Part shown: one piece after another, positions 3,162 to 23,429 of the stretch
How positions within the stretch are numbered: position 1 is the stretch's first letter
Layout: each line of letters starts with the position of its first letter
Source of the DNA: Candidatus Geocrenenecus dongiae
Lineage (GTDB): Archaea; Thermoproteota; Nitrososphaeria_A; Caldarchaeales; Wolframiiraptoraceae
NCBI GenBank assembly: GCA_023267855.1
Contig: JALNLN010000010.1
Span: forward strand, 1 to 55,670
Length of the DNA stretch: 55,670 nt
Direction of reading: 5' to 3'
Notes under the pieces: generated by a model
What the model was told of the DNA's origin: nothing
Seen by the model: only the letters and a program-made list of their open reading frames with translations
Databases searched by the model: none
Made by a program: the position numbers and the translations under genes

Positions 3162-3983
3162 TTGGAGTCAGAGAAAGCAGAAAAAGTAGTGGATACTGTC
3201 GAGGTATATGGTTTATTGAAGAACCCAATAAGGAGAGAGATACTTACATTACTCTATACGAGAGGAGAGATGACTGCAAGTCAGCTCAAGTTACTACTAA
3301 ACATAAGCTATGGAACACTATACTATCATCTAGATTACTTGAAACCTTTCATAAATCAAGTTGGGAGGGGCCGGTATGTGTTAAATGAAAAAGGATTTCT
3401 GGTAACAGAGAAGATGTTGAGAGAGTTAGGTGAGAAGCCAAAGATTAGAGAAGAGAAAAATATCTTCAGAATACTATCTATGGCCACTTTCATGGAGAAG
3501 ATTACACTTAAACCCACCAGATATATGCCTCTAGGAATAATCGTTCTCCTAACCTGTATAGTTTTGTCGCAGATAATGCCTATAAAATTTACGATACTCC
3601 ATCTTTCCATAACTTTAAGTGAAAGCTATCTTACGAATTCTATTATTAGTTTTTTCATAGTTATTGGCTACGTACTACTTGCAGGAGAGATCCTATCACC
3701 TCATAAAGGAGGATTTATAGGGCTCATCTCTGGAACACTACTCTCATATACACCTGTGGCCCTCTACATTACAATACTCTTTATACTAAAACTCTACAAT
3801 TACCTCATCTCAGAATTCGTAAACATACTTCAAATAGTCTTCATAATAGTGCACGCTCTCCAGATAATTATGATATCTTCTGCTTTAACACATTCACGTG
3901 GAATTAGTTGGGAGAAAAGCTTACCAGCAACGCTAATACTCTCATACATAAGCCTCCTAGCAATATACTACAACATCCTGTAA
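3162..3983 (+). CDS. Winged-helix regulator fused to a multi-span membrane domain
   Basis: Residues about 10-85 form an ArsR-type winged helix (VYGLLKNPIRREILTLL, then MTASQLKLLLNISYGTLYYH and the wing YVLNEKGF). After a linker, residues about 115-273 contain four to five hydrophobic segments. The protein would be a DNA-binding regulator tethered to the membrane, an architecture known in archaea, sensing something at or in the membrane. The start is TTG at 3162, chosen because it leaves an intact N-terminus for the HTH; there is no ATG before the HTH in this frame. The gene lies between the surface coiled-coil gene, transcribed away from it, and the putative origin. Its ligand and targets cannot be read from the sequence. 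Confidence 0.7.
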   Translation: MESEKAEKVVDTVEVYGLLKNPIRREILTLLYTRGEMTASQLKLLLNISYGTLYYHLDYLKPFINQVGRGRYVLNEKGFLVTEKMLRELGEKPKIREEKNIFRILSMATFMEKITLKPTRYMPLGIIVLLTCIVLSQIMPIKFTILHLSITLSESYLTNSIISFFIVIGYVLLAGEILSPHKGGFIGLISGTLLSYTPVALYITILFILKLYNYLISEFVNILQIVFIIVHALQIIMISSALTHSRGISWEKSLPATLILSYISLLAIYYNIL

Positions 3984-4332
3984 GAGAAAATCAGAAGCTT
4001 CTCACTTCACAAGAGGAATATGATTCTTGTAAAAATCTTAACAGCAAAAATGGAATATGATTTTTACTCTAAAGTTACTCTAGTATAACCTTCAGTCATA
4101 TAGGATAATACCCTCAACATTATAGTGAATCTTAGAATATTTCTTCCTTGGGAAATTGGCCACAGAACCTATCAAAAAATAAACATTCTTTAAAAAATGA
4201 CAATACATTTAGTCAATAATTGAAGATGTTTCTTGGCTAGGAGAAGGATGCCGTATTTTGCCTAAACATTCCTTTATCTCTAATAGAGAATAACGATATA
4301 TAAATAGGGTTAGAAGAAATAGTAGAGCTCCT

Positions 4333-4354
4333 TCTCCAGTAGAAAGAGAGGGGT
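4333..4354 (+). promoter_or_regulatory. ORB-like Orc1/Cdc6 binding site 1
   Basis: The sequence TCTCCAGTAGAAAG followed by AGAGGGGT resembles the archaeal ORB consensus (CTCCAGTGGAAAC with a downstream G-run). It points toward the second full site, so the two face each other. Confidence 0.6.
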
Positions 4355-4470
4355 GTTATGTATTTCTAGTGAAGAAGCTAGGAGGTTAGGAAATTGGTCT
4401 GGAAAGCTTTCTACAAAGCTTTTTCTAAAATAGTTCACAGAACAGTTTCACAATATGTGAAGACCTTTAC

Positions 4471-4482
4471 CTCCACTTGAAA
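4471..4482 (+). promoter_or_regulatory. Mini-ORB-like site
   Basis: CTCCACTTGAAA matches the dyad core of the ORB consensus but lacks the G-rich tail, like the mini-ORBs described at other archaeal origins. It is weaker evidence than the two full sites. Confidence 0.35.
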
Positions 4483-4499
4483 TCCAGACGAAAACCCCG

Positions 4500-4521
4500 C
4501 CACCCCACCGTTTCCACTCTA
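4500..4521 (-). promoter_or_regulatory. ORB-like Orc1/Cdc6 binding site 2
   Basis: Read on the minus strand it is TAGAGTGGAAAC followed by GGTGGGGTGG. The AGTGGAAAC core is an exact match to the archaeal ORB core, and the G-rich tail is in the expected place. Confidence 0.65.
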
Positions 4522-4635
4522 CAATAAAAAATTCTTCCCTAGTAATAATGAGGTGAAAACGTTTTAGAGTGGGAGATATAATTTTTTTGTGGTTGAATTT
4601 CAAGATTGTAATGGGAGATATCCATAGGGGGCTTC

Positions 4636-5946
4636 ATGACAATTGATAAACAGAACACAATTGTAGATAGATACAGTGGGCTTCATGTCCAATCGAAGAA
4701 AAGGGGTGGAGAAGATCCTCTCCACAACGTTATTGAGAAAGCTCTCCAAAGACCGAAAATCTTCAAAAATAGAGATGTCATGAGGTCTGACTATATTCCA
4801 GGCAATCTTCCTCATAGAGTTGAAGAAATAAGAAGACTTGGAGAAATACTCTCTCCTTCTCTTCATCTTTCAAAACCTAGTAATGTATTCATATATGGTA
4901 AAACTGGAACTGGAAAAACCGCTGTAGTTAAATATGTTTTTAAAAGATTTAGAGAGATAGCTGAATCCGAGAATCTTCCTCTTGAGTTCGCTTACGTTAA
5001 CTGCCGTATATCGAGTACAGAATACCGTATCTTAGCAGAATTATGTGAAACCATAAATATTAAAGTTCCTTTCACAGGTTTATCGAAAGCAGAAGTCTTC
5101 AATAGATTTAGAAATGGTTTAAATGAAAAAAAGATAGTTTTAATAGCTTGTCTAGATGAGATAGACGTGCTCGTTAAGAATTATGGAGACAACTTACTCT
5201 ACGAACTTACTAGAATAAATGAAGGCTTTGATAGAGGATCTTTAAGCATCGTAGGCGTCTCGAACGATCTTCACTTCAAAGAACTATTAGACCCAAGAGT
5301 TCTCAGTAGTCTAAGTGAAGAAGAACTAGTCTTCCACCCTTACACAGCTCTAGAACTAGTAGATATACTCTCTGAGAGAGCGGCCATGGCCTTCTATCCT
5401 GGAACAGTACCTGAAGAAGTTATAAGACTCTGTGCAGCTTTGGCGGCTCAGGAACATGGTGATGCGAGAAGAGCTATTGATTTACTTAGAGTATCGGCGG
5501 AGGTTGCTGAGAGAGTTGGTGCGGAGAAAGTAGAGGAGAAGCATGTTAGAATAGCTTTAAACATGATTGAGAGAGGTAGGGTTTTTGAAGCTCTTTCTAC
5601 ACTTCCTCTACATAGTAAGCTCGTCTTAACATCTATATACCTGCTGGTCAAGAACGATGTACATGAGATTACTTCAGGAATGCTCTATGAAACTTACAGA
5701 GAAATTTGTTCAACACTAGGTCTAGAATCATTGAGTGATAGAAGAATTAGCACCCTTGTATCAGAATTAGATATGCTAGGAGTTCTGAAGAGCGAAATAG
5801 CGAATATGGGTAGATACGGCAGAACTAGAAAGATCACACTCCTAACTTCTTTAAGTGAAGTTGAAGAGGTCTTGGAGAACGATGAAATAATCAAAACCCT
5901 ACTACAACATCGGCCATCACTAATAACGAAGTTAAAATCTAGCTAG
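4636..5946 (+). CDS. cdc6: Orc1/Cdc6 replication initiator ATPase
   Basis: The 436-residue protein binds origin recognition boxes and loads the MCM helicase. It has an AAA+ domain with Walker A GKTGTGKT (about residue 90), Walker B LIACLDEIDVL (about 170) and sensor regions ending near residue 270 (GDARRAIDLLRVSAE is the conserved arginine sensor 2). A C-terminal winged helix for DNA binding (about 330-436) includes TLGLESLSDRRISTLVSELDMLG. The length is normal for the family. It lies directly beside ORB-like sites and upstream of the PolD small subunit, the arrangement seen at Pyrococcus oriC. The ATG at 4636 follows a G-rich stretch (AGGGGGC) that may serve as ribosome binding site. Confidence 0.95.
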   Translation: MTIDKQNTIVDRYSGLHVQSKKRGGEDPLHNVIEKALQRPKIFKNRDVMRSDYIPGNLPHRVEEIRRLGEILSPSLHLSKPSNVFIYGKTGTGKTAVVKYVFKRFREIAESENLPLEFAYVNCRISSTEYRILAELCETINIKVPFTGLSKAEVFNRFRNGLNEKKIVLIACLDEIDVLVKNYGDNLLYELTRINEGFDRGSLSIVGVSNDLHFKELLDPRVLSSLSEEELVFHPYTALELVDILSERAAMAFYPGTVPEEVIRLCAALAAQEHGDARRAIDLLRVSAEVAERVGAEKVEEKHVRIALNMIERGRVFEALSTLPLHSKLVLTSIYLLVKNDVHEITSGMLYETYREICSTLGLESLSDRRISTLVSELDMLGVLKSEIANMGRYGRTRKITLLTSLSEVEEVLENDEIIKTLLQHRPSLITKLKSS

Positions 5947-5987
5947 CCCCCCAAATGATAAACAATAATAAAACATCTATTATATAG

Positions 5988-7481
5988 TTGATATGTAAAA
6001 TGGAGAATTTAAGGAAGAAGATAATTGAGATCGTTCTAGCAGAGGGATACAATATTACGGCTGAAGCTATTAACATACTCGAGAGACTTGATAATCCTAT
6101 AGAAAAACTGAAGAAAACAATAGAGAAATTGAGAAGAGAGATGCCTTCGGTCTTAGTAATAGGGAGCGAGCATCTAGTATATAATGAACCAGGAGAGAGG
6201 ATCCTGGAGGGGGTAAGTGAAACAGAAGTAGAAGAGAAAGAAGTTACTGCAGAGTGGAGTCCAAGGATAGAGGTAGATGAACGTTTCCAGAAACAGTATA
6301 GAATTAGAGGTGAAGCGTCAGAATTCCAGAACTATTTTAAGAGTAGGTATATGAAGCTGAAGAGAATTCTTGAGGAGAGGGGAGAACGTTATATCAGAAT
6401 TACCGATCTAATGAAAGCACCTAGGAATAGTGAAGCATTCTTGATAGTTATGTTGCTGGATAAGAAAGATTACCAGAACTCTATAATACTCATGGTTGAG
6501 GATGATAGTGGTCAAACAAGACTCATTATATCTAAGAAAGATACTGAGTTGTTGAAGAAAGCTGAGAAAGTTCTCCCAGACCAGGTATTCGGAGTAAGAG
6601 TTACAAAGATAAATAATACTTTCCTAGTTAAAGATCTCTTCTTGCCTGATGTTCCATTAAAACATAAAACTATTGAGAAATATCTCCGAGATGTTTACGT
6701 TGTCTTACTTTCAGATCTACATATTGGGAGCAAGAAATTTAGAAAAGATTATTTTGAATCTTTCCTCGACTGGATTAACCGTTCAAGAGACTCGGAAGTT
6801 AAAAAGATAAAGTATATTGTAATTGCTGGAGATCTAGTAGATGGTGTAGGAGTTTTCCCTAGACAAGAAGATGAACTTGAATATAATTCCATAAATCAAC
6901 AAATTGAAGAAGCAGGGAAAATACTTTCAGAAATACCTAGAGAAATGAAGATACTGATATCTGCCGGGAACCATGAACCTGTTTCTAAAGCAATCCCACA
7001 ACCTCCACTTCCATTAGAATATAGAAAGATTCTTGACAAGAATGGAGAATACATCTTTATAGGAAATCCATGTTACGTGAAATTGGAAGATAGGCTTCTT
7101 CTAGTATATCATGGACAAAGCCTCGATGATATGATACAGTATTTACCGAACATATCCTATACAACTTTAAGTAGAGATATAGGCGTGTTGCTTGAAATGA
7201 TCTTGAAGTATAGGCATCTAACACCAATCTATGGAGAGAACACCTCTATACTTCCCACCCCTGAAGACCTACTTGTAATTGATGAAATTCCAGATATAAT
7301 TCATACGGGCCATGTTCATGTAGCTTATGCTGGTGGTTACCGTGAAGTTCTATTGGTGAATAGTGGTACATGGCAAGACCAGACAAGCTTCCAGAGAGAG
7401 ATAGGTCTAGAACCAACTGTAGGTACAGCTATACTCATAAATCTCAAAACGTTAACAGTAAGATTAAAGAAGTTTAGTTAG
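5988..7481 (+). CDS. polB: DNA polymerase D small (exonuclease) subunit DP1
   Basis: This is the MRE11-like 3'-5' proofreading subunit of the archaeal replicative polymerase D. An N-terminal helical region is followed by an OB-fold (about residues 130-220) and a calcineurin-like phosphodiesterase domain with all metal motifs: LLSDLHIGS (D243, H245), IAGDLVDG (D282), SAGNHEP (N328, H329) and HTGHVHVAYAGG (about 440). The product is 497 residues from the TTG at 5988; the ATG at 6000 gives MENLRKK and is an equally good start. It lies 41 bases after cdc6 on the same strand. The large subunit DP2 is not in the window. Its presence argues against a classical crenarchaeote. Confidence 0.93.
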   Translation: MICKMENLRKKIIEIVLAEGYNITAEAINILERLDNPIEKLKKTIEKLRREMPSVLVIGSEHLVYNEPGERILEGVSETEVEEKEVTAEWSPRIEVDERFQKQYRIRGEASEFQNYFKSRYMKLKRILEERGERYIRITDLMKAPRNSEAFLIVMLLDKKDYQNSIILMVEDDSGQTRLIISKKDTELLKKAEKVLPDQVFGVRVTKINNTFLVKDLFLPDVPLKHKTIEKYLRDVYVVLLSDLHIGSKKFRKDYFESFLDWINRSRDSEVKKIKYIVIAGDLVDGVGVFPRQEDELEYNSINQQIEEAGKILSEIPREMKILISAGNHEPVSKAIPQPPLPLEYRKILDKNGEYIFIGNPCYVKLEDRLLLVYHGQSLDDMIQYLPNISYTTLSRDIGVLLEMILKYRHLTPIYGENTSILPTPEDLLVIDEIPDIIHTGHVHVAYAGGYREVLLVNSGTWQDQTSFQREIGLEPTVGTAILINLKTLTVRLKKFS

Positions 7482-7485
7482 AAGT

Positions 7486-9522
7486 TCACTCTCTAAATAC
7501 TATGTCGATATAGTTTGAGCTAGGTTTGATCTTCTTGAACAAAGTGCCTGTCCCTTCATAGAATTTTGTAAAGAATTCATATAGGTGGAGCCTCAGAGCT
7601 TGGATGAAAACCATTAAACCTTCTAGAGCCATTATGCCTATGTTTCCTATTATGAGTATGGGTAGACTCATAAATCCTAACGCTTGCCAAGTCGTGTTGA
7701 GTAGGAGGAGAAGTGCTGAGTGAACTAGTAGAAGAATAGTTAGCCTAACGTAGCTTAGTGAATTAGACATGAAGTGTATTATGTTGTCTAGAACTTCTAG
7801 TAAACCATTACCTGCGAGCCCTATAAATCCTCCCTTCTTCCAAAGTAATGATTCCACGATTGCTCTACCGAGTACTAATACTAAGATACTTGCTAAAATC
7901 ATCCCTATAGCAGTGGGTGATAGAACTTTTACGGGGACTCCTAGATATGGTACTGGGTTCTCAGAACTCATCAGTTTACCCATATCTTTTCCAGCTCCAA
8001 AGAAGCATAGTACGAACAGAACTCCAGATATATACATTATTATTGTCGGGAGTTTGGATAAAAATGCTTCAACGTAATCTCCATGTTTCAAAGCTTTTCT
8101 AAACGCTAGAGTATATCCTGTTACTATGTGAATTATTCCAAGGAATAATGTAAAATTCATCAACTTTAAAACTTCAGACATATTGAATTGTCTCTCAGCT
8201 CCATGTTCTTCAACTAAATGTAGAACTTCCGGTTTAGGGAATGGGAAATGTATCTTGAAGCCGAATGCTTCTCCAATTATGAATCCAGCTATAGCTGCTG
8301 AGATTCCTAGAATCGTTAATAGTTTGGCCCATTCTTTAAGATTCCCGTATACTCTTTTGTACATGAAGAAGCCGAATAATGCGAGGATTAGACCTTGCCC
8401 AAGATCTGCATACATTAATCCATAGAATATTGAGAAGAATATTGCCACGTAAGGTGTTGGATCTATCTCATCACTTCTCGGATAACCTTGTATGGCCACA
8501 ATATTCTCAAAACTCTTCATGAGACCTTTATTCTTAAGTAGTGTTGGAGCATTCTCATCATGTTTATGGTGACCTGCTTCTGAGAATAATACACAATATT
8601 TTTTATCGAATTCTTCTTTAAATTTTTCAACAAAGTCTTTAGGTACGTAACCATTTATTACTTTAAATCTTCTAAATCCCGTCTTAACATTAAGCTTACT
8701 GAGGAGTTCTTCAACTATCTGTACAGCTTCTCTGAGAGCTAAAATCTTTGGCCCAGAATTTACACGTATCTCAGCCAGTTTTTCCTCAGATTCTTTAAGT
8801 TCTTCTAGAAGATTTCTATATCTTTCTTCTAAGATTTTATATGCTTCTTGTAAGTTTTGTGGTAACTCTGGTGGAATTGAGAAAGCTTTTACACCGAATC
8901 CTCTTAGAACTCTCTCAACCTTCTCTCCATCTTCTTTTAGAGATATGATTAGTAGAGCTGAAACTCCTTTTTCAAGCGGTATATCCAGCACCATGCATGT
9001 AGGTAAACTTCTCTTAATCTCAGCAATATTCTTCTGCTCAGTAATAGAGAAGACTCCGTAAAATCTCTTAAACTTCTCTAAGACTGTCAAATCTATCTTG
9101 TAGTCTTTCAGAAGCCTTAAGCTAGATAACAGTACCTCAACATTTCTTATATCTTCTCTAAGTTTCTTCGCTCTTTCAATACTTTTCTTAGCGGTAGATA
9201 TTAATGGTCTGACCTCGGCTTCTATCTTCTCTATAAGTTCTTCTATATGAGATACCTCGATCTTCTCTTTTCTTACTTGATATCCTTTCAATAACTGTTG
9301 GATTACTCCAACTTCAACAGTTATATTGAATGTGGAGACTAGGTAATCTAATTCTGATCTTAGTTTCCTGAGGGTGTCATGTATCTTGCTAACTCTTTCA
9401 TCGAGCTCTACACCATGTTCTTCTATGTGAAACCACTCAAATCTATAAAGATCTCTAATTGCTTCACTAACCCTATACTCTGGAACTATCAATGTAACTT
9501 TACATACTTCTGCTAGACCCAA
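7486..9522 (-). CDS. atpI: A-type ATP synthase subunit I (a subunit)
   Basis: The 678-residue protein is the membrane stator and proton/sodium channel subunit of the archaeal ATP synthase. The N-terminal half (about 1-330) is soluble with long coiled coils, including LKELEESEEK-type stretches, and the C-terminal half has about seven to eight membrane helices. The helix containing EVLDNIIHFMSNSLSYVRLTIL holds the conserved ion-path arginine (SYVRL), and GQGLILALFGFFMY and FTLFLGIIHI are other family landmarks. The length is normal. It is divergent from atpF, 143 bases away. Its stop is only 4 bases from the stop of polB, tail to tail. Confidence 0.93.
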   Translation of the reverse strand: MGLAEVCKVTLIVPEYRVSEAIRDLYRFEWFHIEEHGVELDERVSKIHDTLRKLRSELDYLVSTFNITVEVGVIQQLLKGYQVRKEKIEVSHIEELIEKIEAEVRPLISTAKKSIERAKKLREDIRNVEVLLSSLRLLKDYKIDLTVLEKFKRFYGVFSITEQKNIAEIKRSLPTCMVLDIPLEKGVSALLIISLKEDGEKVERVLRGFGVKAFSIPPELPQNLQEAYKILEERYRNLLEELKESEEKLAEIRVNSGPKILALREAVQIVEELLSKLNVKTGFRRFKVINGYVPKDFVEKFKEEFDKKYCVLFSEAGHHKHDENAPTLLKNKGLMKSFENIVAIQGYPRSDEIDPTPYVAIFFSIFYGLMYADLGQGLILALFGFFMYKRVYGNLKEWAKLLTILGISAAIAGFIIGEAFGFKIHFPFPKPEVLHLVEEHGAERQFNMSEVLKLMNFTLFLGIIHIVTGYTLAFRKALKHGDYVEAFLSKLPTIIMYISGVLFVLCFFGAGKDMGKLMSSENPVPYLGVPVKVLSPTAIGMILASILVLVLGRAIVESLLWKKGGFIGLAGNGLLEVLDNIIHFMSNSLSYVRLTILLLVHSALLLLLNTTWQALGFMSLPILIIGNIGIMALEGLMVFIQALRLHLYEFFTKFYEGTGTLFKKIKPSSNYIDIVFRE

Positions 9523-9665
9523 AGGTAATCCCTTCTTTCCTACACTCTATAATTATCATCAATCTCAACATCAATATAAAGATCAACAATACCTGATTAC
9601 TGGAAAAGACTTAAGCTTGTTAAAATTTATTTCTTGGCTGGAGAAAAATTCTTCGGTAGAGAGTC

Positions 9666-9962
9666 TTGAGGATAGTAGCTATTGGTTCTAAACCTTTCAT
9701 TACAGGTTTCAGACTCTCCGGGATAAAAGGTATAGAAGTTGATTCACCGCAAAGTCTTCTAAGAGAAGTCGAATCTCTTCTCAATAGAGGAGATATCGGG
9801 TTAATAATACTAGATGAAGGGATCTCTAAACATGTTCGAGAACAAATAGATAAGATTAGAGCTGAACACGCAACCCCACTGATCTACGAGTTAACAAGTA
9901 TCGGAGGGAAGATAGAAAAGATAGACTATAGAAATACTTTGAGAAGAATACTGGGAGTATGA
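9666..9962 (+). CDS. atpF: A-type ATP synthase subunit F
   Basis: The 98-residue protein is the small central-stalk subunit. It starts MRIVAIGSKPFITGFRLSG, the typical subunit F N-terminus, followed by a Rossmann-like fold with IGLIILDEGIS and a C-terminal helix. The start is TTG at 9666; the MRIVAIG alignment supports it. A TATA-like AAATTTATTTC lies about 40 bases upstream. It is followed after 75 bases by atpE on the same strand. Confidence 0.88.
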   Translation: MRIVAIGSKPFITGFRLSGIKGIEVDSPQSLLREVESLLNRGDIGLIILDEGISKHVREQIDKIRAEHATPLIYELTSIGGKIEKIDYRNTLRRILGV

Positions 9963-10037
9963 TCTGAAGAAACAATCTTAAAACCATAAATCAAATATAA
10001 ATTATAGTTTTTTACTGGATTCTAGAGGGCCATAACA

Positions 10038-10640
10038 TTGTATCCAGAAAGTTTAGAGAGAATTATAAGGGAAGTTGCAGAGAAGACTACAGAAGAACTT
10101 GAATCTTCATTCAGTAGGTTTATTGAAGATCTAAGAGAGCGGGTTGGGAGAGAGCGGGAAGAAGTATCAAAAACTGTCGTATCATTTCTTGAAGATCTTG
10201 AAAAGAAAAGTAACATGATACGTTCAAGAATTCTTAGCTTAACTCAAGTAAAGATTAGAGGTATGAAGTTAGAGACGATAGAGAGATGTGTGGAAAACGT
10301 GATCAGGAAAATGTTAGAGGAGATTGATATAAAGGCTAGAAGAGGTGAGCTCAACAACGTTCTGGAGAAAATGCTTGAAGAAGCGGTAGAGATAGTTGGA
10401 GGAAACCATGTAAAGATCTATACAAATACTTTCCTCAAAGATTCACTTAAGAAGATCTCTGAAAATGTTTCTTCTAAGAAGAATATCAAGATAGAGGTTA
10501 GAGATGAACCTGTAGAGACTGTTTTTGGACTTGTAGCTAGAAGTCTAGACGACTCCATAAGCTATGATAATAGAATCGAGGTAAGAATAGAGAGGCTTAA
10601 ACCAGCTATAAGAAAGATAGTTGCATCAATGTTAACCTAG
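10038..10640 (+). CDS. atpE: A-type ATP synthase subunit E
   Basis: This is the peripheral stalk subunit, 200 residues. The N-terminal half is a long charged helix (IIREVAEKTTEELESSF and on), and the C-terminal half is the globular domain with VKIYTNTFLKDSL and the signature segment ETVFGLVARSLDDSISYDNRIEVRIERL. The start is TTG at 10038. A separate TATA-like AATATAAATTATAG at about 9994 suggests that it may also be transcribed apart from atpF. Subunits A, B, C, D and K are not nearby. Confidence 0.88.
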   Translation: MYPESLERIIREVAEKTTEELESSFSRFIEDLRERVGREREEVSKTVVSFLEDLEKKSNMIRSRILSLTQVKIRGMKLETIERCVENVIRKMLEEIDIKARRGELNNVLEKMLEEAVEIVGGNHVKIYTNTFLKDSLKKISENVSSKKNIKIEVRDEPVETVFGLVARSLDDSISYDNRIEVRIERLKPAIRKIVASMLT

Positions 10641-10675
10641 AAACATATTTACGCTAGATTCCCAAGTCTCCTATA

Positions 10676-12355
10676 TTGGAAATGTTGAACTTAAAGCGTA
10701 GAAGTAACTTGGTTGTTGAAGGTGTTGAACGTTCTCCACATAGAGCATTACTTAGAGCATTAGGTTTATCAGATGAAGAACTTTCACGTCCATTCATAGG
10801 AATCGCTAATTCTTGGAATGAAGTTGTTCCAGGACACATACATCTAGATAAACTATCCTGCAAAGTTAAAGATGGTGTTAGATCTAGAAACGGTGTACCA
10901 CTTGAATTCAATACTATAGCTGTTTGTGATGGGTTGGCGATGGGCCATGAAGGAATGAAGTTCAGTCTAGTGAGTAGAGAAGTCATAGCGGACAGCATCG
11001 AGATAATGGTCAACGCACATAGATTCGACGCACTCGTATGTATAGGGAGTTGTGATAAGATTGAACCTGGCATGGTGATAGCTATGACCCGCCTCAACGT
11101 CCCCTCGATCTTTCTAAACGGTGGACCGATGAGGTGTGGATATTATGCTGGTAGAAGACTCTCAACGGGAGATGTATTTGAAGCTGTAGGTAAATATTCT
11201 GCTGGAGAACTGTCCCTAGAAGAGTTGAAGCAGGTAGAGAAATACGCATGTCCAGGTGCAGGATCATGTGCAGGACTCTACACCGCCAACACGATGGCCA
11301 TACTCATAGAAGCATTAGGATTGATGTTACCTGGTGCTTCAACAATTCCGGCAGAAGATTCTAGAAGATATGAAGTAGCTTACAAGACTGGTCAAACTAT
11401 TATGAATGCTCTTGAAATAGATTTGAAGCCTAAAGACATATTGACCTATGAAGCATTTTTGAATGCTATAACTGTAGATATGGCGATGGGGGGCTCGACG
11501 AACGCAATACTCCACTTGATAGCCATAGCTAGAGAAGCAGGTGTAAAACTTACTTTAGAAGATTTCGATAAGATAAGTAATAGAACACCGTATATCGTAG
11601 ACTTAATTCCAGGTGGGAGGTACCCAGTAGAAGATCTCGATAAAGTTGGAGGTTTACCGCTGGTAATGAAGAAGCTTCTAGATGCAGGTCTCATAGATGG
11701 AGACGTATTAACAATAACTGGAAAAACATTAAGACAAAACTTAGAGGAATATGTCTTCCCACCTCAAACTCTAGACGTGGTTAAACCTATCGAGAACCCC
11801 CTCTCAAAACATGGATCAATAGTTGTACTGAAAGGTAATCTAGCACCGGAAGGAGCGGTAGTAAAGATTAGTGGTGTAAAGAACCTCATACACAAGGGTC
11901 CAGCAAAAGTATTCAATTCTGAAGAAGAAGCATTTAAATCAACTATGAATGGAGAGATCGAGGAAGGAGATGTAGTAGTGATAAGATATGAGGGGCCACG
12001 TGGAGGTCCAGGAATGCGTGAAATGTTATCTATAACAGCTATACTTGTAGGTCAAGGTCTAGGAGAGAAAGTTGCATTAGTAACAGATGGAAGATTCTCT
12101 GGTGCTACGAGAGGGCTGATGGTTGGACATGTATCTCCAGAAGCAGCTGTAGGTGGACCTATAGCTGTCGTAGAAGAAGATGACGAGATAATTATAGATG
12201 TACCAAACAAGAAACTTGAACTAAACATCTCTAGAGAAGAACTAGAAGATAGGTTGTCTAGATGGTCTCCACCAGAGCCTAGATATAGACGAGGAATCCT
12301 TAAAAGATATTCCGAGCTGGCTCTCCCATCCCATCTAGGAGCAGGTTTAGAATAA
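10676..12355 (+). CDS. ilvD: Dihydroxy-acid dehydratase
   Basis: The enzyme dehydrates dihydroxy-isovalerate and -methylvalerate in valine, isoleucine and leucine synthesis. The 559-residue product carries the family signatures [12 protein letters not shown] and [16 protein letters not shown], which hold iron-sulfur ligands, then [10 protein letters not shown] and [19 protein letters not shown]. The length is standard. The frame allows TTG at 10676 or ATG at 10682 (MLNLKRRS). It follows atpE by 35 bases but is functionally unrelated. Its 3' end overlaps the convergent HD phosphohydrolase gene by 9 bases. Other branched-chain genes are not in the window. Confidence 0.95.
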
Positions 12356-17732: not shown

Positions 17733-18980
17733 CTATTTCTTCTTCAGTATCTCTATTCCAGGTAGTGTTCTCTTCGAGATATATGTTATCAGGGCTCCTC
17801 CTCCTAGACTTACATATGAGAAGTTGCTTGGACTTAAACCAACGAGTTCTATCGCTGTGGATGAATCCCCTCCTCCTATTAATGTAAATGCTTTACACTT
17901 AGATAATGCTTCATAGATTATCCTAGTTCCCTTCCTAAATTCTTCTCTTTCATAAACTCCAGCAGGTCCTTTAACTATTATTGCATCTTCTTCAGTTGTA
18001 TCTAAGATTATCTTAGCATATCTTCTAGCTGTCTTCTCACCTATATCGTATATCGCTCCAGGAGCTGGAAGTTTATCTACGTCTATCTCAACTCTCTTAC
18101 CATCTTCCTCATATGCAAAGTCTATCGGGGTCTCCAATCTATCTCCTAAAACATCTCTGATCTTAGCTAAACGTTCTAGATACACATCGAATTTTTTCTT
18201 CTTTATATATTCTTCTGAAGGTTCTCCAAACTTCACACCTTTTGTCATGAGGAACAACTGTCCAAGAATTCCTGCAGATAAAACTTTCTTTATATTCTCA
18301 TTCCTCTTAGAAATCAATGCGTCTATAACTTCTATACATTCTTCAGGCTTATTTCCACCCATAACCAACACTACTCTCCTATCTTCTTCAAGAACTGTTG
18401 TCAATGCTCTGAGTTCTTTCTCCATTATCCTCCCAGCTACTGTAGGTAAAACATGTGAGAATCCTACAACCGATGCATGTGCTCTATGTGCTACCGAGAA
18501 TGCATCTAAGATAAATAGGTCTGCTAGAGGTGCAAGTGTAGATACGAGTCTCCCGCGAGAATGTTCTTCAGGGGAAGCTTCTTTAGTTTCTTCATCAAGC
18601 ATTCTAACATTCTCAAGTAAAACTATCTCACCGTTCTTCAAAGACTTCACAGTTCTTACAGCTTCCTCACCAATAATATCTGGAACATACTTAACTGGCT
18701 TACCAACATGTCTTGAAAGAATTTCAGCATGATCTTTCAATGGTAAGAAATCTGGATCACCTTTCCTTCCCTGATGTGCTAAGAGAACAACTCTAGCATT
18801 TTTATCTGATAATTCCCTTACAGTTTCTGCATGAGCTCGAAATCTTTCATTATCTTTAATCTTTCCTGTCTCCGGGTCTATAGGTGAATTAAGATCTACC
18901 CTCACTATCACAGTCTTCTCTGAAGTATCTACGTCATCTAAAGTCCTAAACCAGAGACTACTTCTAGACATTCCTATCAA
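17733..18980 (-). CDS. pgk: Phosphoglycerate kinase
   Basis: The enzyme interconverts 1,3-bisphosphoglycerate and 3-phosphoglycerate with ATP. The 415-residue product has the family opening TVIVRVDLNSPID, substrate site KDNERFRAHAETVREL, VVLLAHQGRKGDPDF, LLENVRML and the C-terminal nucleotide-binding VKGPAGVYE and LIGGGDSSTAIELVG. It is of archaeal type. The frame offers MIGMSRSS, so the start may be at 18980 or three codons later. No gene is co-transcribed closely. GAPDH, its pathway partner, is 1.6 kb away on the same strand. Confidence 0.95.
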   Translation of the reverse strand: MIGMSRSSLWFRTLDDVDTSEKTVIVRVDLNSPIDPETGKIKDNERFRAHAETVRELSDKNARVVLLAHQGRKGDPDFLPLKDHAEILSRHVGKPVKYVPDIIGEEAVRTVKSLKNGEIVLLENVRMLDEETKEASPEEHSRGRLVSTLAPLADLFILDAFSVAHRAHASVVGFSHVLPTVAGRIMEKELRALTTVLEEDRRVVLVMGGNKPEECIEVIDALISKRNENIKKVLSAGILGQLFLMTKGVKFGEPSEEYIKKKKFDVYLERLAKIRDVLGDRLETPIDFAYEEDGKRVEIDVDKLPAPGAIYDIGEKTARRYAKIILDTTEEDAIIVKGPAGVYEREEFRKGTRIIYEALSKCKAFTLIGGGDSSTAIELVGLSPSNFSYVSLGGGALITYISKRTLPGIEILKKK

Positions 18981-19219: not shown

Positions 19220-20506
19220 ATGCCAAATAATTTTCTTAAGATTTTTTTCCAGTATGTTGCACCAGAAGATGCTGTGGAAAGAATTCTAGGTAGCTCTGAT
19301 ATATGTCCTAGAATTGAAGTCATAGATTCTTTAGAATCTCTTGGACGTGTTATCGCTGAAGATATTCCTTCACCTTTCTCTATCCCTAAAGAAGACGTAT
19401 CTCATTTCGATGGATATGCTGTAAAAAGCTCTGACACAGTAAATGCCTCCACTGTAAATCCTGTAAAGCTTAAGATAGCTGGAAGAATAGAATCCATTAT
19501 TGAACACGATTTATCTATTGGAGATAAGGAAGCAGTTTACGTAGTGACAGGCGTTAAAATTCCGAGGAATGCTGATGCAGTAATACCTGTAGAAAGAACT
19601 AGATTAATAGGAGACTATATAGAGATCCTCGAACCTTGTAAGAAAGGTGATAACATAACTTTTAAAGGAGCGGACATAGCTGAAGGTGACATAATTTTGA
19701 AAAAAGGTAGTATTATTAGACCTCAGGATATTAAGTATCTGCTAGAGATTAGGAAGTTTAAGATCAAAGTATATGCAAAGCCGAGAATTTCACTTATAGC
19801 TGTTGGAGATGAGCTTACTGAAAATCTAGATGAACTAACCCATAAGAAGCTTGAGACGTCTACAAAACTCGTAGCTAACTATATCAAAGAACTCGGCGGC
19901 ATCCCTAAGATAATGGGAGTGGTTCCAGATGACCCTGAACACATAATTAAAGCTGTAAAGAATTCTCTAGAAGATAGCGATATATGTGTAACTATTGGTG
20001 GCATTTCGTTAGGAGTTAGAGATCTATGCTGGAGAACATTATCCAAACATCCAGAAAGTATTCCAATAGCTAGAGGTTTAAGAATTCAACCTGGTAGAGC
20101 TACAAGTATAGTAGTTTTTTCTAAGAAACCTGTAGTAATGCTTCCAGGACACGTACAATCAACTATCTGTGGAACAATCTACATACTAATACCACTAATA
20201 TACTACATGTCTGGGCTATCAGCGAGAAAAATACTACCAACAATACCAGCAGAAATAGGCGAAGACATCGTTGTCAAAGAGTATAAATCTTTTAAGAGAA
20301 TACGTTTCGTAAAGTTAGTTAAACAAAAAGAGAAATTCATAGCTAATCTACTCATGGGAGATTCTTCAATGCTTAGCCCAATACTCAAATCTGATGGGTT
20401 CATAGAGATACCTGAGGGAGTAGAAAGAATAGAAAAAGGCTCACATGTAGATGTACACATATTATCATGGTCGCAACTATTACAAACATTCCTCAAAGAA
20501 TCATGA
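19220..20506 (+). CDS. moeA: Molybdopterin molybdenumtransferase MoeA
   Basis: The protein inserts molybdate or tungstate into adenylylated molybdopterin. The 428-residue product has EAIPSP-like domain 1 (IAEDIPSPFSIPKEDVSHFDGYAV, where most relatives have SAMDGYA), GDKEAVYVVTGVKIPRNADAVIPVE, the GD motif ISLIAVGDEL, the MPT-binding VTIGGISLGVRD and PGHVQSTICGTI, and a C-terminal beta domain. It is the normal length. It probably serves the tungsten aldehyde oxidoreductase encoded at 13.7 kb. The 239-base gap before it, upstream of pgk in the other direction, is AT-rich with only promoter-like sequence. Confidence 0.92.
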   Translation: MPNNFLKIFFQYVAPEDAVERILGSSDICPRIEVIDSLESLGRVIAEDIPSPFSIPKEDVSHFDGYAVKSSDTVNASTVNPVKLKIAGRIESIIEHDLSIGDKEAVYVVTGVKIPRNADAVIPVERTRLIGDYIEILEPCKKGDNITFKGADIAEGDIILKKGSIIRPQDIKYLLEIRKFKIKVYAKPRISLIAVGDELTENLDELTHKKLETSTKLVANYIKELGGIPKIMGVVPDDPEHIIKAVKNSLEDSDICVTIGGISLGVRDLCWRTLSKHPESIPIARGLRIQPGRATSIVVFSKKPVVMLPGHVQSTICGTIYILIPLIYYMSGLSARKILPTIPAEIGEDIVVKEYKSFKRIRFVKLVKQKEKFIANLLMGDSSMLSPILKSDGFIEIPEGVERIEKGSHVDVHILSWSQLLQTFLKES

Positions 20507-20630: not shown

Positions 20631-21659
20631 CTATAGCTGTTTTGCGATTAGATGTACTATGTCTACTAGGCGGCAGGAGTAACCCCATTCATTATCATAC
20701 CATCCAAGAACCTTGACCATGTCGCTTCTCTCACCTATCGTCATTATACTTAATCCATCTATGATACATGAATGTGGATTTCCGATAATATCTGCTGAAA
20801 CTATAGGGTCTTCAGTATACTCTAGTATATTCTTCATACTACCTTCTGCTGCAGATTTGTATGCTTTTCTTACTTCATCTACAGTTACATCTCTTTCTAG
20901 CAGTGCCGTTAAATCTGTTACTGAACCATCTGGTACAGGTACTCTGAGAGCTATACCATCCATCTTACCTTTAACTTCTGGAATAACAAGATGGAGTGCG
21001 GATGCAGCTCCAGTCGTTGTAGGTATTATCGAGAGTGCTGCTGCTCTAGCTCTCCTTAAATCTCTGTGAACGAGATCTAACACTCTCTGATCATTTGTAT
21101 ATGCGTGTACTGTTATCATGAATCCTTTCTTTATGCCAAAATTGTCTAAGAGTACTTTAACCATAGGTGCGAGACAGTTAGTCGTACATGAAGCACCAGA
21201 GATAACATCATGCTTAGACACATCTAACATATGATCATTAACTCCTGGAACTATCGTTACATCTGCATCCTTACAGGGAGCTGTTACAAGAACTTTTTTC
21301 ACAGTATCTCTTATGTGTTTTGAAGCATCTGTTTTACTTGTGAACTGACCTGTTGCTTCTACAACTAGCTCTACGTTTTCTTCTTTCCAAGGTATCTGAG
21401 AAGGATCACGTATACTGTAACCTCTAATCTCTTTACCATCAATCACTATGCCTTTCTCTGTGTATGAAATTTCTCTGTTAAATCTTCTATGTACAGAATC
21501 ATACTTTAAAAGTAACGCTGTAGTTTTAGTATCAGCAAGCTCATTAAATGCAACTACTTCGAAAACTTTACCATATCTTGGATCTTGAAGAGCAGCTCTC
21601 AAAAACAATCTACCAATCCTACCCATACCATTAATTCCAACTCTCAGAACCATATTCAC
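20631..21659 (-). CDS. gap: Glyceraldehyde-3-phosphate dehydrogenase, bacterial-type
   Basis: The 342-residue protein oxidises glyceraldehyde-3-phosphate to 1,3-bisphosphoglycerate, or the reverse. It has the Rossmann motif GINGMGRIGRLFLRA, the catalytic SGASCTTNCLAP with C158, the partner H185 in TVHAYTNDQ, and the end motif WYDNEWGYSCRLVD. This is the bacterial/eukaryotic class I enzyme. The usual archaeal class II enzyme has a different active site (SCNTT). The coenzyme-site segment reads FNELADTKT with Glu at 40, where NAD-specific enzymes usually have NDL; the NEL variant also occurs in erythrose-4-phosphate dehydrogenase, so the substrate is not fully certain. Transfer from bacteria is likely. 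Confidence 0.9.
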   Translation of the reverse strand: MNMVLRVGINGMGRIGRLFLRAALQDPRYGKVFEVVAFNELADTKTTALLLKYDSVHRRFNREISYTEKGIVIDGKEIRGYSIRDPSQIPWKEENVELVVEATGQFTSKTDASKHIRDTVKKVLVTAPCKDADVTIVPGVNDHMLDVSKHDVISGASCTTNCLAPMVKVLLDNFGIKKGFMITVHAYTNDQRVLDLVHRDLRRARAAALSIIPTTTGAASALHLVIPEVKGKMDGIALRVPVPDGSVTDLTALLERDVTVDEVRKAYKSAAEGSMKNILEYTEDPIVSADIIGNPHSCIIDGLSIMTIGERSDMVKVLGWYDNEWGYSCRLVDIVHLIAKQL

Positions 21660-21838
21660 AATAAGTATAAGAAAACTAATTTTTTAGTTTATGTATAAAA
21701 CAAGGTCTAAATATGTACGATTATAATTGGATTGGAATGAGTATTAATAAAAGCTTTCTAGTTTTCTGTCTTTTTAGATGAGTTTTAGATGAAATTTATG
21801 TCGGCTAGGGGTAAGTTGTAACTTCTTTGATGGGCATA

Positions 21839-21847
21839 AACTTATAA
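21839..21847 (+). promoter_or_regulatory. TATA box deciding the start of the RHH-nucleotidyltransferase gene
   Basis: AAACTTATAATG is centred about 30 bases before the ATG at 21874. It overlaps an in-frame ATG at 21847, which therefore cannot lie in the mRNA. The transcript would be leaderless or nearly so. Confidence 0.55.
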
Positions 21848-21873
21848 TGTACATCTATGATTTAAGAATTAGT

Positions 21874-22710
21874 ATGAGTAAGCATAGAACTAGTATAGAG
21901 TTTCCAGTAGAGTTATGGGAGGCATTAAAAAAACATGTTCCAGCTAGGAAGAGAAGTTCATTTATACTTGAAGCTGTTAAAGAAAAGTTGATGAGGGAAT
22001 CTCTGAAATGTTTAATTCTTTGTGGTGGTAGAGGAACAGGTTTAACACCTTTAACTTTCAGTATTCCTAAATCTATGATGCCTATCGGTTATAAACCAAT
22101 AATCGAACACATTATCTTATATCTTAAGAAGCAGGGAGTTTACAATTTTATACTTGCCATAGGATATCTTGGTGAACATTTGATAAAGTATCTAGGTGAT
22201 GGTAAGTCTCTTGGGGTAACAATAGATTATTCTATTGAGAAAGTTCCTTTGGGAACTGCTGGAGCTGTAAAAAATGCTGAAAAGAAATTTACAAACACGT
22301 TTTTAACAGTGAATGGCGATATTCTTTTTACAGGTTTAGATATATCCAGCTTGGTTGAATTTCATAAAGATAAAGGTGGTGTAGCAACAATCGTATTAAC
22401 TAGAGTTGAAGATGCTAGAAGGTATGGTCTCGTATCGATAGATGAAGAAAATAGAGTTATAGCTTTTAGAGAGAAACCTAAACAACAGGTTCCAGGTTTC
22501 ATTAATGCTGGAATATATGTCTTCGAACCAGCCATCTTCGATTACATTCCTCCAGATAGACCTTCATCTCTCGAAGAAGATGTCTTTCCAGAACTTGCAG
22601 ATCAGAATAAACTATATGCATACATACATAATGGATACTGGATAGATATTGGAGATGCTCTAGATTATGAGAAAGCATGTAAAGACTTTTACAACGGTGT
22701 ATTTTCATAA
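21874..22710 (+). CDS. Ribbon-helix-helix domain fused to sugar-phosphate nucleotidyltransferase-like domain
   Basis: Residues 1-42 look like a MetJ/CopG ribbon-helix-helix DNA-binding domain: strand HRTSIEFP, helix VELWEALKKHV, turn PARKRSS, helix FILEAVKEKLM. Residues 44-278 are a nucleotidyltransferase of the glucose-1-phosphate thymidylyl-/mannose-1-phosphate guanylyltransferase fold, with PKSMMPIGYKPIIEHII, the metal aspartate in TVNGDILF, FREKP, FINAGIYVFEP, EDVFPEL and WIDIGDALDYEKA. The signature that normally reads GGxGTRLxPLT reads GGRGTGLTPLT, with glycine 56 in place of the catalytic arginine. The domain may thus bind a sugar nucleotide without making it and act as a sensor for the DNA-binding part. 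This is inference; a weak enzyme is possible. Confidence 0.8.
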   Translation: MSKHRTSIEFPVELWEALKKHVPARKRSSFILEAVKEKLMRESLKCLILCGGRGTGLTPLTFSIPKSMMPIGYKPIIEHIILYLKKQGVYNFILAIGYLGEHLIKYLGDGKSLGVTIDYSIEKVPLGTAGAVKNAEKKFTNTFLTVNGDILFTGLDISSLVEFHKDKGGVATIVLTRVEDARRYGLVSIDEENRVIAFREKPKQQVPGFINAGIYVFEPAIFDYIPPDRPSSLEEDVFPELADQNKLYAYIHNGYWIDIGDALDYEKACKDFYNGVFS

Positions 22711-22775: not shown

Positions 22776-23429
22776 ATGTTTACAGAAACTTCTAGACATA
22801 GGAATACTGTCATTATAAGTGTTTCAACAATTTTTGGAGCACTTTCCGCCGTACTAGCTATGTTGCCTCTCAGTTTCCCATTTCCACTAGTACCATATCT
22901 GAAGTTTGATATTGCTGAGATGCCTGTTTATGTAGCCTTCTTATCGTTTGGTCCTATACCTGGGTTTACTTCAGCTTTAACTTACTGGTTTGTATTAAAT
23001 ATGTTTGGTGAGTGGGCTCCAATAGGACCTTTAATGAAATTTATTGCTGTAGCTTCTACATTATCTGGATTTATGCTTGGCTCTAGGATTCTCTCGAAGA
23101 AGTTCTCAATGTATCTCCAAGTATTTTTCTATGGTGTTTTGGTGAGAGTTCTCGCTACTTCTATAGCTAACTACGTATTGCTAGCATTTATTATGCCATT
23201 CTTTTTTGAGTATGCCTCTAAAGTTGTTTCTACTGCTCTCGGCATAAGTCTTGGAACTGGATTTAATGCCTGGTTTCTAATACTTTTCTTGACAGCAGTA
23301 TTCAACATACTCCACGTTATCTATATAATGATTCCTTCTCTAATAGTGATTAAAAGTTTCTCTAGACAAGGGTTATTCATCGGTTTGAAAGAACCTTGGA
23401 TAATAGCTTTATCTAAGAAGAAGACTTAG
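22776..23429 (+). CDS. ECF transporter S component, RibU-like
   Basis: The 217-residue membrane protein has about six hydrophobic segments. The segment LVPYLKFDIAEMPVYVAFLSFGPIPGF resembles the conserved loop of riboflavin-type S components (YLKFDFSDIPxLIAxFLFGPLxG). S components bind a vitamin and work with an energising module (EcfT plus two EcfA ATPases), none of which is encoded here, so the module would be shared and encoded elsewhere. Riboflavin is only the best guess at substrate. It begins 65 bases after the RHH-nucleotidyltransferase gene; no functional link is evident. Confidence 0.75.
   Translation: MFTETSRHRNTVIISVSTIFGALSAVLAMLPLSFPFPLVPYLKFDIAEMPVYVAFLSFGPIPGFTSALTYWFVLNMFGEWAPIGPLMKFIAVASTLSGFMLGSRILSKKFSMYLQVFFYGVLVRVLATSIANYVLLAFIMPFFFEYASKVVSTALGISLGTGFNAWFLILFLTAVFNILHVIYIMIPSLIVIKSFSRQGLFIGLKEPWIIALSKKKT

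Follow-up and report, generated by a model that had tools for sequence, protein, structure and literature searches.

A ribbon-helix-helix domain fused to an arginine-deficient nucleotidyltransferase: a probable sugar-metabolite-sensing transcription regulator in archaea

The window, the whole stretch of DNA that was analysed, is a 55,670-base contig from a Caldarchaeales ('Aigarchaeota') genome of the family Wolframiiraptoraceae, whose genus contains 4 genomes. At positions 21874–22707 on the + strand (stop codon 22708–22710) it encodes a 278-residue protein in which a ribbon-helix-helix (RHH) domain is joined to an NDP-sugar pyrophosphorylase-fold nucleotidyltransferase (NT) domain. This RHH-NT protein very likely (probability approximately 0.8) belongs to an undescribed archaeal family of one-component transcription regulators that sense sugar metabolites, although there are no binding or expression data and the effector is inferred. 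An earlier note on the sequence had offered two readings, an enzyme turned into a transcription factor that senses a metabolite, or a self-regulating enzyme. That suggestion is supported, and the first reading is clearly favoured because the exchange of the signature arginine for glycine is fixed, catalytic residues are repeatedly lost in fused proteins and hardly ever in ordinary NTs, operator-like repeats lie at its own promoters and, in Aenigmatarchaeota, also at those of phosphoglycerate kinase (PGK) or fructose-1,6-bisphosphatase (FBPase)-PGK, and the genomic context is one of sugar phosphates and gluconeogenesis.

The open reading frame contains an alternative in-frame ATG upstream at 21847. 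Conservation among orthologues begins at MSKHRTS in the family alignment, and a TATA-like TTATAA is located at 21842–21847, approximately 27–32 nt 5' of 21874, so the start at 21874 is taken as correct. The NT domain covers residues 44–278 (22003–22707, + strand). A Pfam search matched residues 46–270 to NTP_transferase (PF00483) with an E-value of 1.7e-47, the sole domain to exceed its Pfam cut-off in this protein. The AF2 model had a pLDDT of 85 and its top PDB matches in Foldseek were GDP-mannose pyrophosphorylases (E 3.8e-24), which are the nearest relatives of the NT domain in both sequence and predicted structure.

The RHH domain comprises residues 1–42 (21874–21999, + strand), with helices at residues 12–21 and 24–42 in the predicted structure. 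It was missed in the window protein by single-sequence Pfam and PDB profile searches. Profile-profile comparison of the aligned N-termini with a profile built from 30 archaeal CopG proteins gave a probability of 90% and an E-value of 1.5e-6, a score reached by none of 60 column-shuffled controls. Three related fusions scored 25.2, 22.6 and 21.7 bits against Pfam RHH_1 (PF01402), above the cut-off of 20.5. The window protein thus meets the strand-helix-helix criterion (approximately 40 residues) of the CopG/MetJ RHH superfamily. Sequence-specific binding of DNA by an RHH dimer is inferred, with indirect support from the operator-like repeats described below. Direct hhalign comparison of the two N-terminal subfamilies of RHH-NT proteins gave no match; they are connected by way of the NT domain and a shared RHH profile, and not directly. 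The N-termini of the Asgard proteins can be aligned with the window family, and their identity as RHH lacks independent confirmation in the profile comparison.

Sixteen full-length orthologues were identified, one per genome in four genera of the family, with identities of 61–84%. All retain the full length and an open reading frame, the RHH core HRTSIE[FL]P..[LV]W..L...R+R..FI..A..+KL is kept in 16/16, and the RHH residues (HRTSIEFP...) together with the glycine are invariant or nearly so. A pseudogene, or a chance resemblance of the N-terminus to RHH, could be proposed because single-sequence searches fail to detect the domain, but conservation in every orthologue, the profile-profile E-value and the uninterrupted frames practically rule this out. 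The same applies to a sporadic arginine-to-glycine mutation, which was rejected since glycine is present in 16/16 orthologues. The gene was not found in any of the 6 genomes (95–98% complete) of a fifth genus of the same family, g4, and RHH-NT is therefore dispensable.

The NT signature of the window protein is GGRGTGL, with Gly56 (codon 22039–22041, + strand) at the position of the triphosphate-binding arginine, giving GGxGxG[LM] instead of GGxGxRL in all 16 orthologues. In the GDP-mannose pyrophosphorylase VTC1, Arg13 touches the citrate/pyrophosphate site, and Lys23, Asp111, Glu195-Lys196 and Asp219 are also implicated (PMC9168903). Residues were mapped onto VTC1 by ourselves, using motifs common to both proteins. 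The following equivalents are retained on the + strand: the signature PK lysine Lys66 (22069–22071; VTC1 Lys23), metal-binding Asp149 (22318–22320; Asp111), Glu200-Lys201-Pro202 of the sugar-phosphate site (22471–22479; Glu195-Lys196) and metal-binding Asp258 (22645–22647; Asp219). Lys66, Asp149, Glu200-Lys201 and Asp258 are invariant in 16/16 orthologues. Two criteria of active NDP-sugar pyrophosphorylases of the RmlA/GMPP type therefore give different answers: the GxGxR[LM] arginine is absent from every family member, while the PK lysine, both metal-binding aspartates and the EKP motif are present. As the arginine is lost and the other mapped residues are retained, the family lacks one specific triphosphate contact and keeps its sugar-phosphate and metal sites.

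The earlier note's structural claims are borne out by these results. It had described an RHH at residues 1–42 joined to a sugar-nucleotide nucleotidyltransferase fold, a change of GxGTRL to GRGTGL with the arginine missing and the metal-binding aspartates kept, and a TATA box that fixes the start, and all three held. It had also stated that homologues with a poorly conserved N-terminus, or with the GTRL arginine present, would refute its interpretation; inside the family neither is the case, as the first 42 residues and the glycine are conserved in 16/16 members, and among more distant fusions the arginine is present in some and replaced in others.

The RHH-NT layout also occurs in other Thermoproteota, in Aenigmatarchaeota and in Asgard archaea. 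Two Aenigmatarchaeota proteins, L060 and L149, are closely related to the window family and carry Arg and Gln respectively at the signature position. Fusions in other Thermoproteota have Lys, Asn or Arg, and Aenigmatarchaeota fusions with a canonical CopG N-terminus have Lys (8), Arg (7), Asn (2) or Ser (1). Heimdall-type Asgard proteins have Arg in 18 cases and Ser in 1, and the EKP lysine is missing in 19/19. A second Asgard clade has lost the arginine, the PK lysine, the EK pair and the second metal-binding aspartate in 10/10 members. Across these distant fusions the arginine is thus kept in some, such as L060 and the Heimdall type, and replaced by K, N, S, Q or G in others. Overall the signature arginine is kept in 28/69 fused NTs, compared to 55/56 ordinary NTs, most of which come from the same genomes as the fused proteins. 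On a quick tree from which the scored columns had been left out, the arginine state changed at least 9 times, one of which may be the single exception among the ordinary NTs; the fused proteins form two clades on this tree, for which one common origin remains possible. Almost all of the genomes are MAGs, and relatives within subtypes are not independent. The degenerate-active-site Asgard relatives (L182–L191, L244–L253) are found in a different context, flanked by a polyprenyl synthase-like gene and a gene for a large membrane protein.

The Asgard clade that lacks nearly all ligand residues would be consistent with a regulator that senses no metabolite, in which an inactive NT domain serves only as a scaffold for oligomerisation and the RHH works free of ligand. 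For the window family this is highly improbable, as all tested ligand and metal residues other than the arginine are kept in 16/16 orthologues and would not be needed in a mere scaffold.

A candidate operator, GCATAAACTTATAATGTACAT, overlaps the TATA box of the window gene at 21834–21854 (+ strand), and a related motif is found at family promoters; no binding data exist for it. A TRCATAAANNTTATATGTA-like motif is present approximately 35–48 bp 5' of the start in 17/18 promoters, comprising 15/16 of the family together with L060 and L149. The L005 site was located by eye, that of L002 is degenerate and that of L014 lies at a displaced promoter. The Wolframiiraptoraceae motif is a partial palindrome that occurs once, over the TATA/BRE position; the overlap would be compatible with repression, and some of the conservation may simply reflect promoter sequence. 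A stricter pattern gave 10 matches in 20 genomes, 8 of them at the RHH-NT promoter, which weakens a generic-promoter account of the motif without excluding it.

Aenigmatarchaeota carry three further types of element, which were first spotted by eye in RHH-NT promoters and afterwards tested elsewhere. Subtype 1 is a tandem TCATAC-N4-TCATAC with a 10-bp period, of which 9 of the 10 occurrences in 172 kb are just upstream of RHH-NT genes; when 16 spacings were tried only one other pair was obtained, at spacing 14. In whole genomes the repeat was present in 11/11 with subtype 1 and 3/19 others, and the reversed-pattern control for this count matches the same repeats and so gives no information. 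Subtype 2 is the palindrome GTAGnATAnnnTnCTAC, and subtype 3 is TAATACTTCGTAATAT. An additional TCATAC-N4-TCATAC in G465 (L327 position 1501), flanked by an epimerase gene and a gene starting MTEFKADCRYF, marks a candidate target.

In 7/11 Aenigmatarchaeota genomes tested, the element upstream of RHH-NT is found again at the promoter of PGK or FBPase-PGK. The tandem repeat occurs twice before a fructose-1,6-bisphosphate aldolase/phosphatase-PGK operon in G416 and twice before PGK in G417, where the second copy is less perfect. In G438, G439, G440 and G442 the subtype-2 palindrome precedes PGK and matches the motif derived from RHH-NT promoters at 12/12 positions; these four GTAG-type genomes are close relatives and do not represent four independent cases. 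The subtype-3 element of G493 is identical (17/17) at RHH-NT and PGK. Since elements of subtypes 1, 2 and 3 all recur at PGK promoters, three distinct types of computationally predicted operator each tie RHH-NT to PGK. Comparison with the RHH-NT promoter motifs revealed no common site at PGK in G496, G420, G429 or G441, and several genomes of the subtype have no detectable PGK. In Wolframiiraptoraceae, a search around the GAPDH and PGK starts for a further copy of the operator gave none.

Gene order links RHH-NT to gluconeogenic genes independently of these operators. In the window a type-I GAPDH gene (20631–21659, − strand) is divergent from RHH-NT and likely co-regulated with it, as it is the divergent neighbour in most family members. 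The exceptions are G004, where other ORFs intervene, G005, where the separation is approximately 9 kb, and G001, where galK-galE-galT takes the place of GAPDH (L034 2067–5317). In G005, a Wolframiiraptor allenii MAG, the segment of approximately 9 kb (L043 ~3290–12160) lies between the RHH-NT gene and its promoter, so that a stub MRKHRTS remains beside GAPDH and the RHH-NT gene has a TTG start; this is either an insertion or a chimeric contig. PGK lies in the same neighbourhood (17733–18980, − strand), and in the Wolframiiraptoraceae family its own promoter lacks a copy of the operator; a MoeA gene (19220–20506) is located between PGK and GAPDH, which are adjacent in several congeners. Directly downstream of RHH-NT, and probably co-transcribed with it, is an ECF-transporter S-component-like membrane gene (22776–23429, + strand; PF12822, 30.1 bits against a cut-off of 30.7), an order conserved in the family except at a contig end in G001. 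A GH130 beta-mannoside phosphorylase gene is found near the locus in congeners (L032 3801–5702, with equivalents in L031 and L033); such enzymes can give mannose-1-phosphate, a candidate effector. Elsewhere RHH-NT is divergent from PGK-GAPDH-TIM (L060) or forms an operon GAPDH-PGK-RHH-NT (L104/L105), and in Aenigmatarchaeota it is found in heptose clusters (HddA, GmhA, GmhB-HddC), often beside a separate intact NT (L197, L200, L213). Control of GAPDH in the window genome is inferred from divergent adjacency only. Wolframiiraptor has a tungsten GAPOR in addition to GAPDH and PGK (PMC9246946), and the role of GAPDH-PGK in this genus is for this reason undecided.

The main alternative is a self-regulating enzyme similar to PutA, in which the NT domain still makes an NDP-sugar, Lys66 replaces the lost arginine and the RHH tunes only its own transcription. 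In its favour, the window protein still has Lys66, Asp149, Glu200-Lys201 and Asp258, the PK lysine takes the place of the arginine in the pyrophosphate contact in one VTC1 protomer (PMC9168903), some fused relatives keep the arginine, and PutA is a real precedent for an RHH-enzyme (PMC5293562). Against it, glycine is fixed in 16/16 orthologues and the arginine and other catalytic residues are repeatedly lost across the fused family; the G000 genome encodes three other NT matches and the Aenigmatarchaeota clusters often contain an intact NT; and the operator is present at PGK promoters. We consider this alternative unlikely for the window protein. It may hold for the minority of fused NTs that retain every tested catalytic residue, such as L060.

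In the preferred reading, a metabolite-sensing regulator, the RHH dimer would bind the operator over its own promoter, where it would block TBP or RNA polymerase, so that RHH-NT would repress its own gene and probably also, in the window, the GAPDH gene that diverges from it. With the arginine that holds the triphosphate or pyrophosphate gone, the NT domain is predicted to be no longer an enzyme, or a very poor one; this loss of catalysis in the window member is inferred. The loss of catalysis alongside retained sugar-phosphate and metal-binding residues suggests that the domain acts as a sensor. A sugar-1-phosphate or NDP-sugar in the retained pocket would alter the geometry of the RHH dimer and thereby its affinity for the operator, metabolite binding being inferred from the fold and the retained residues. 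The putative regulon would consist of genes for gluconeogenesis and for the supply of sugar nucleotides, namely GAPDH, PGK, FBPase and the heptose and galactose genes. The likeliest polarity is end-product feedback with an NDP-sugar as co-repressor, which is the most economical option but a guess.

A bolder reading, also likely, is that RHH-NT proteins sense sugar nucleotides directly and thereby control the genes of gluconeogenesis (GAPDH, PGK, FBPase) and those for sugar nucleotides, as a previously undescribed transcription-factor family of Caldarchaeales, Aenigmatarchaeota and other archaea. Few archaea have known regulators of glycolysis and gluconeogenesis, and in the open-access literature searched no described one was found for Caldarchaeales, Aenigmatarchaeota or Asgard archaea. 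If true, this reading would supply a family of archaeal gluconeogenesis regulators with predicted binding sites and targets, and would directly couple the demand for sugar nucleotides to the gluconeogenic genes that supply it. It would also mean that an enzyme became a sensor on more than one occasion, and that extant relatives still show the intact, half-lost and dead stages. The earlier note knew of no regulator of this kind, and this held within the open-access literature searched, in which no RHH-NT fusion regulator is described; most subscription papers were outside that scope.

When RHH-NT was compared with known systems, the closest in layout was PutA, an autogenous repressor with an N-terminal RHH on a metabolic enzyme domain, proline dehydrogenase (PMC5293562); for RHH-NT, autoregulation is a proposal. 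PutA remains an active enzyme, while RHH-NT carries an NDP-sugar pyrophosphorylase without the signature arginine in a gluconeogenesis gene context, and the criterion for trifunctional PutA (RHH with active proline and P5C dehydrogenases) is unmet since the fused domain is PF00483. In its proposed mode of action RHH-NT is similar to the CggR/SorC family, which includes the repressor of the Bacillus gapA operon and uses a sensor derived from a sugar-phosphate enzyme fold to control gapA and neighbouring glycolytic genes (PMC11229326). Those proteins are bacterial, with a different DNA-binding domain and a NagB-like sensor fold unrelated to NT; their criterion of a NagB-like effector domain with an N-terminal (w)HTH is not met by the window protein, which has an NT fold with NTP_transferase only. 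GMPPA, the non-catalytic regulatory paralogue of GDP-mannose pyrophosphorylase, belongs to the same NT fold family and binds an NDP-sugar to regulate (PMC11228364), but the GMPPA type combines NT with a left-handed beta-helix and partners an active GMPP, and the window protein has nothing beyond the NT domain, its last residue being 278. CopG, NikR and MetJ share with RHH-NT the N-terminal RHH and operator-like sites that are either palindromic or 10-bp tandem repeats. For NikR and MetJ the signal is metal or SAM, and no regulator of the CopG/NikR/MetJ type with an NT sensor was found described in the open-access literature searched. By the criteria tested RHH-NT belongs to none of the PutA, SorC/CggR and GMPPA types, although enzyme-derived one-component regulators are, as a kind, already known.
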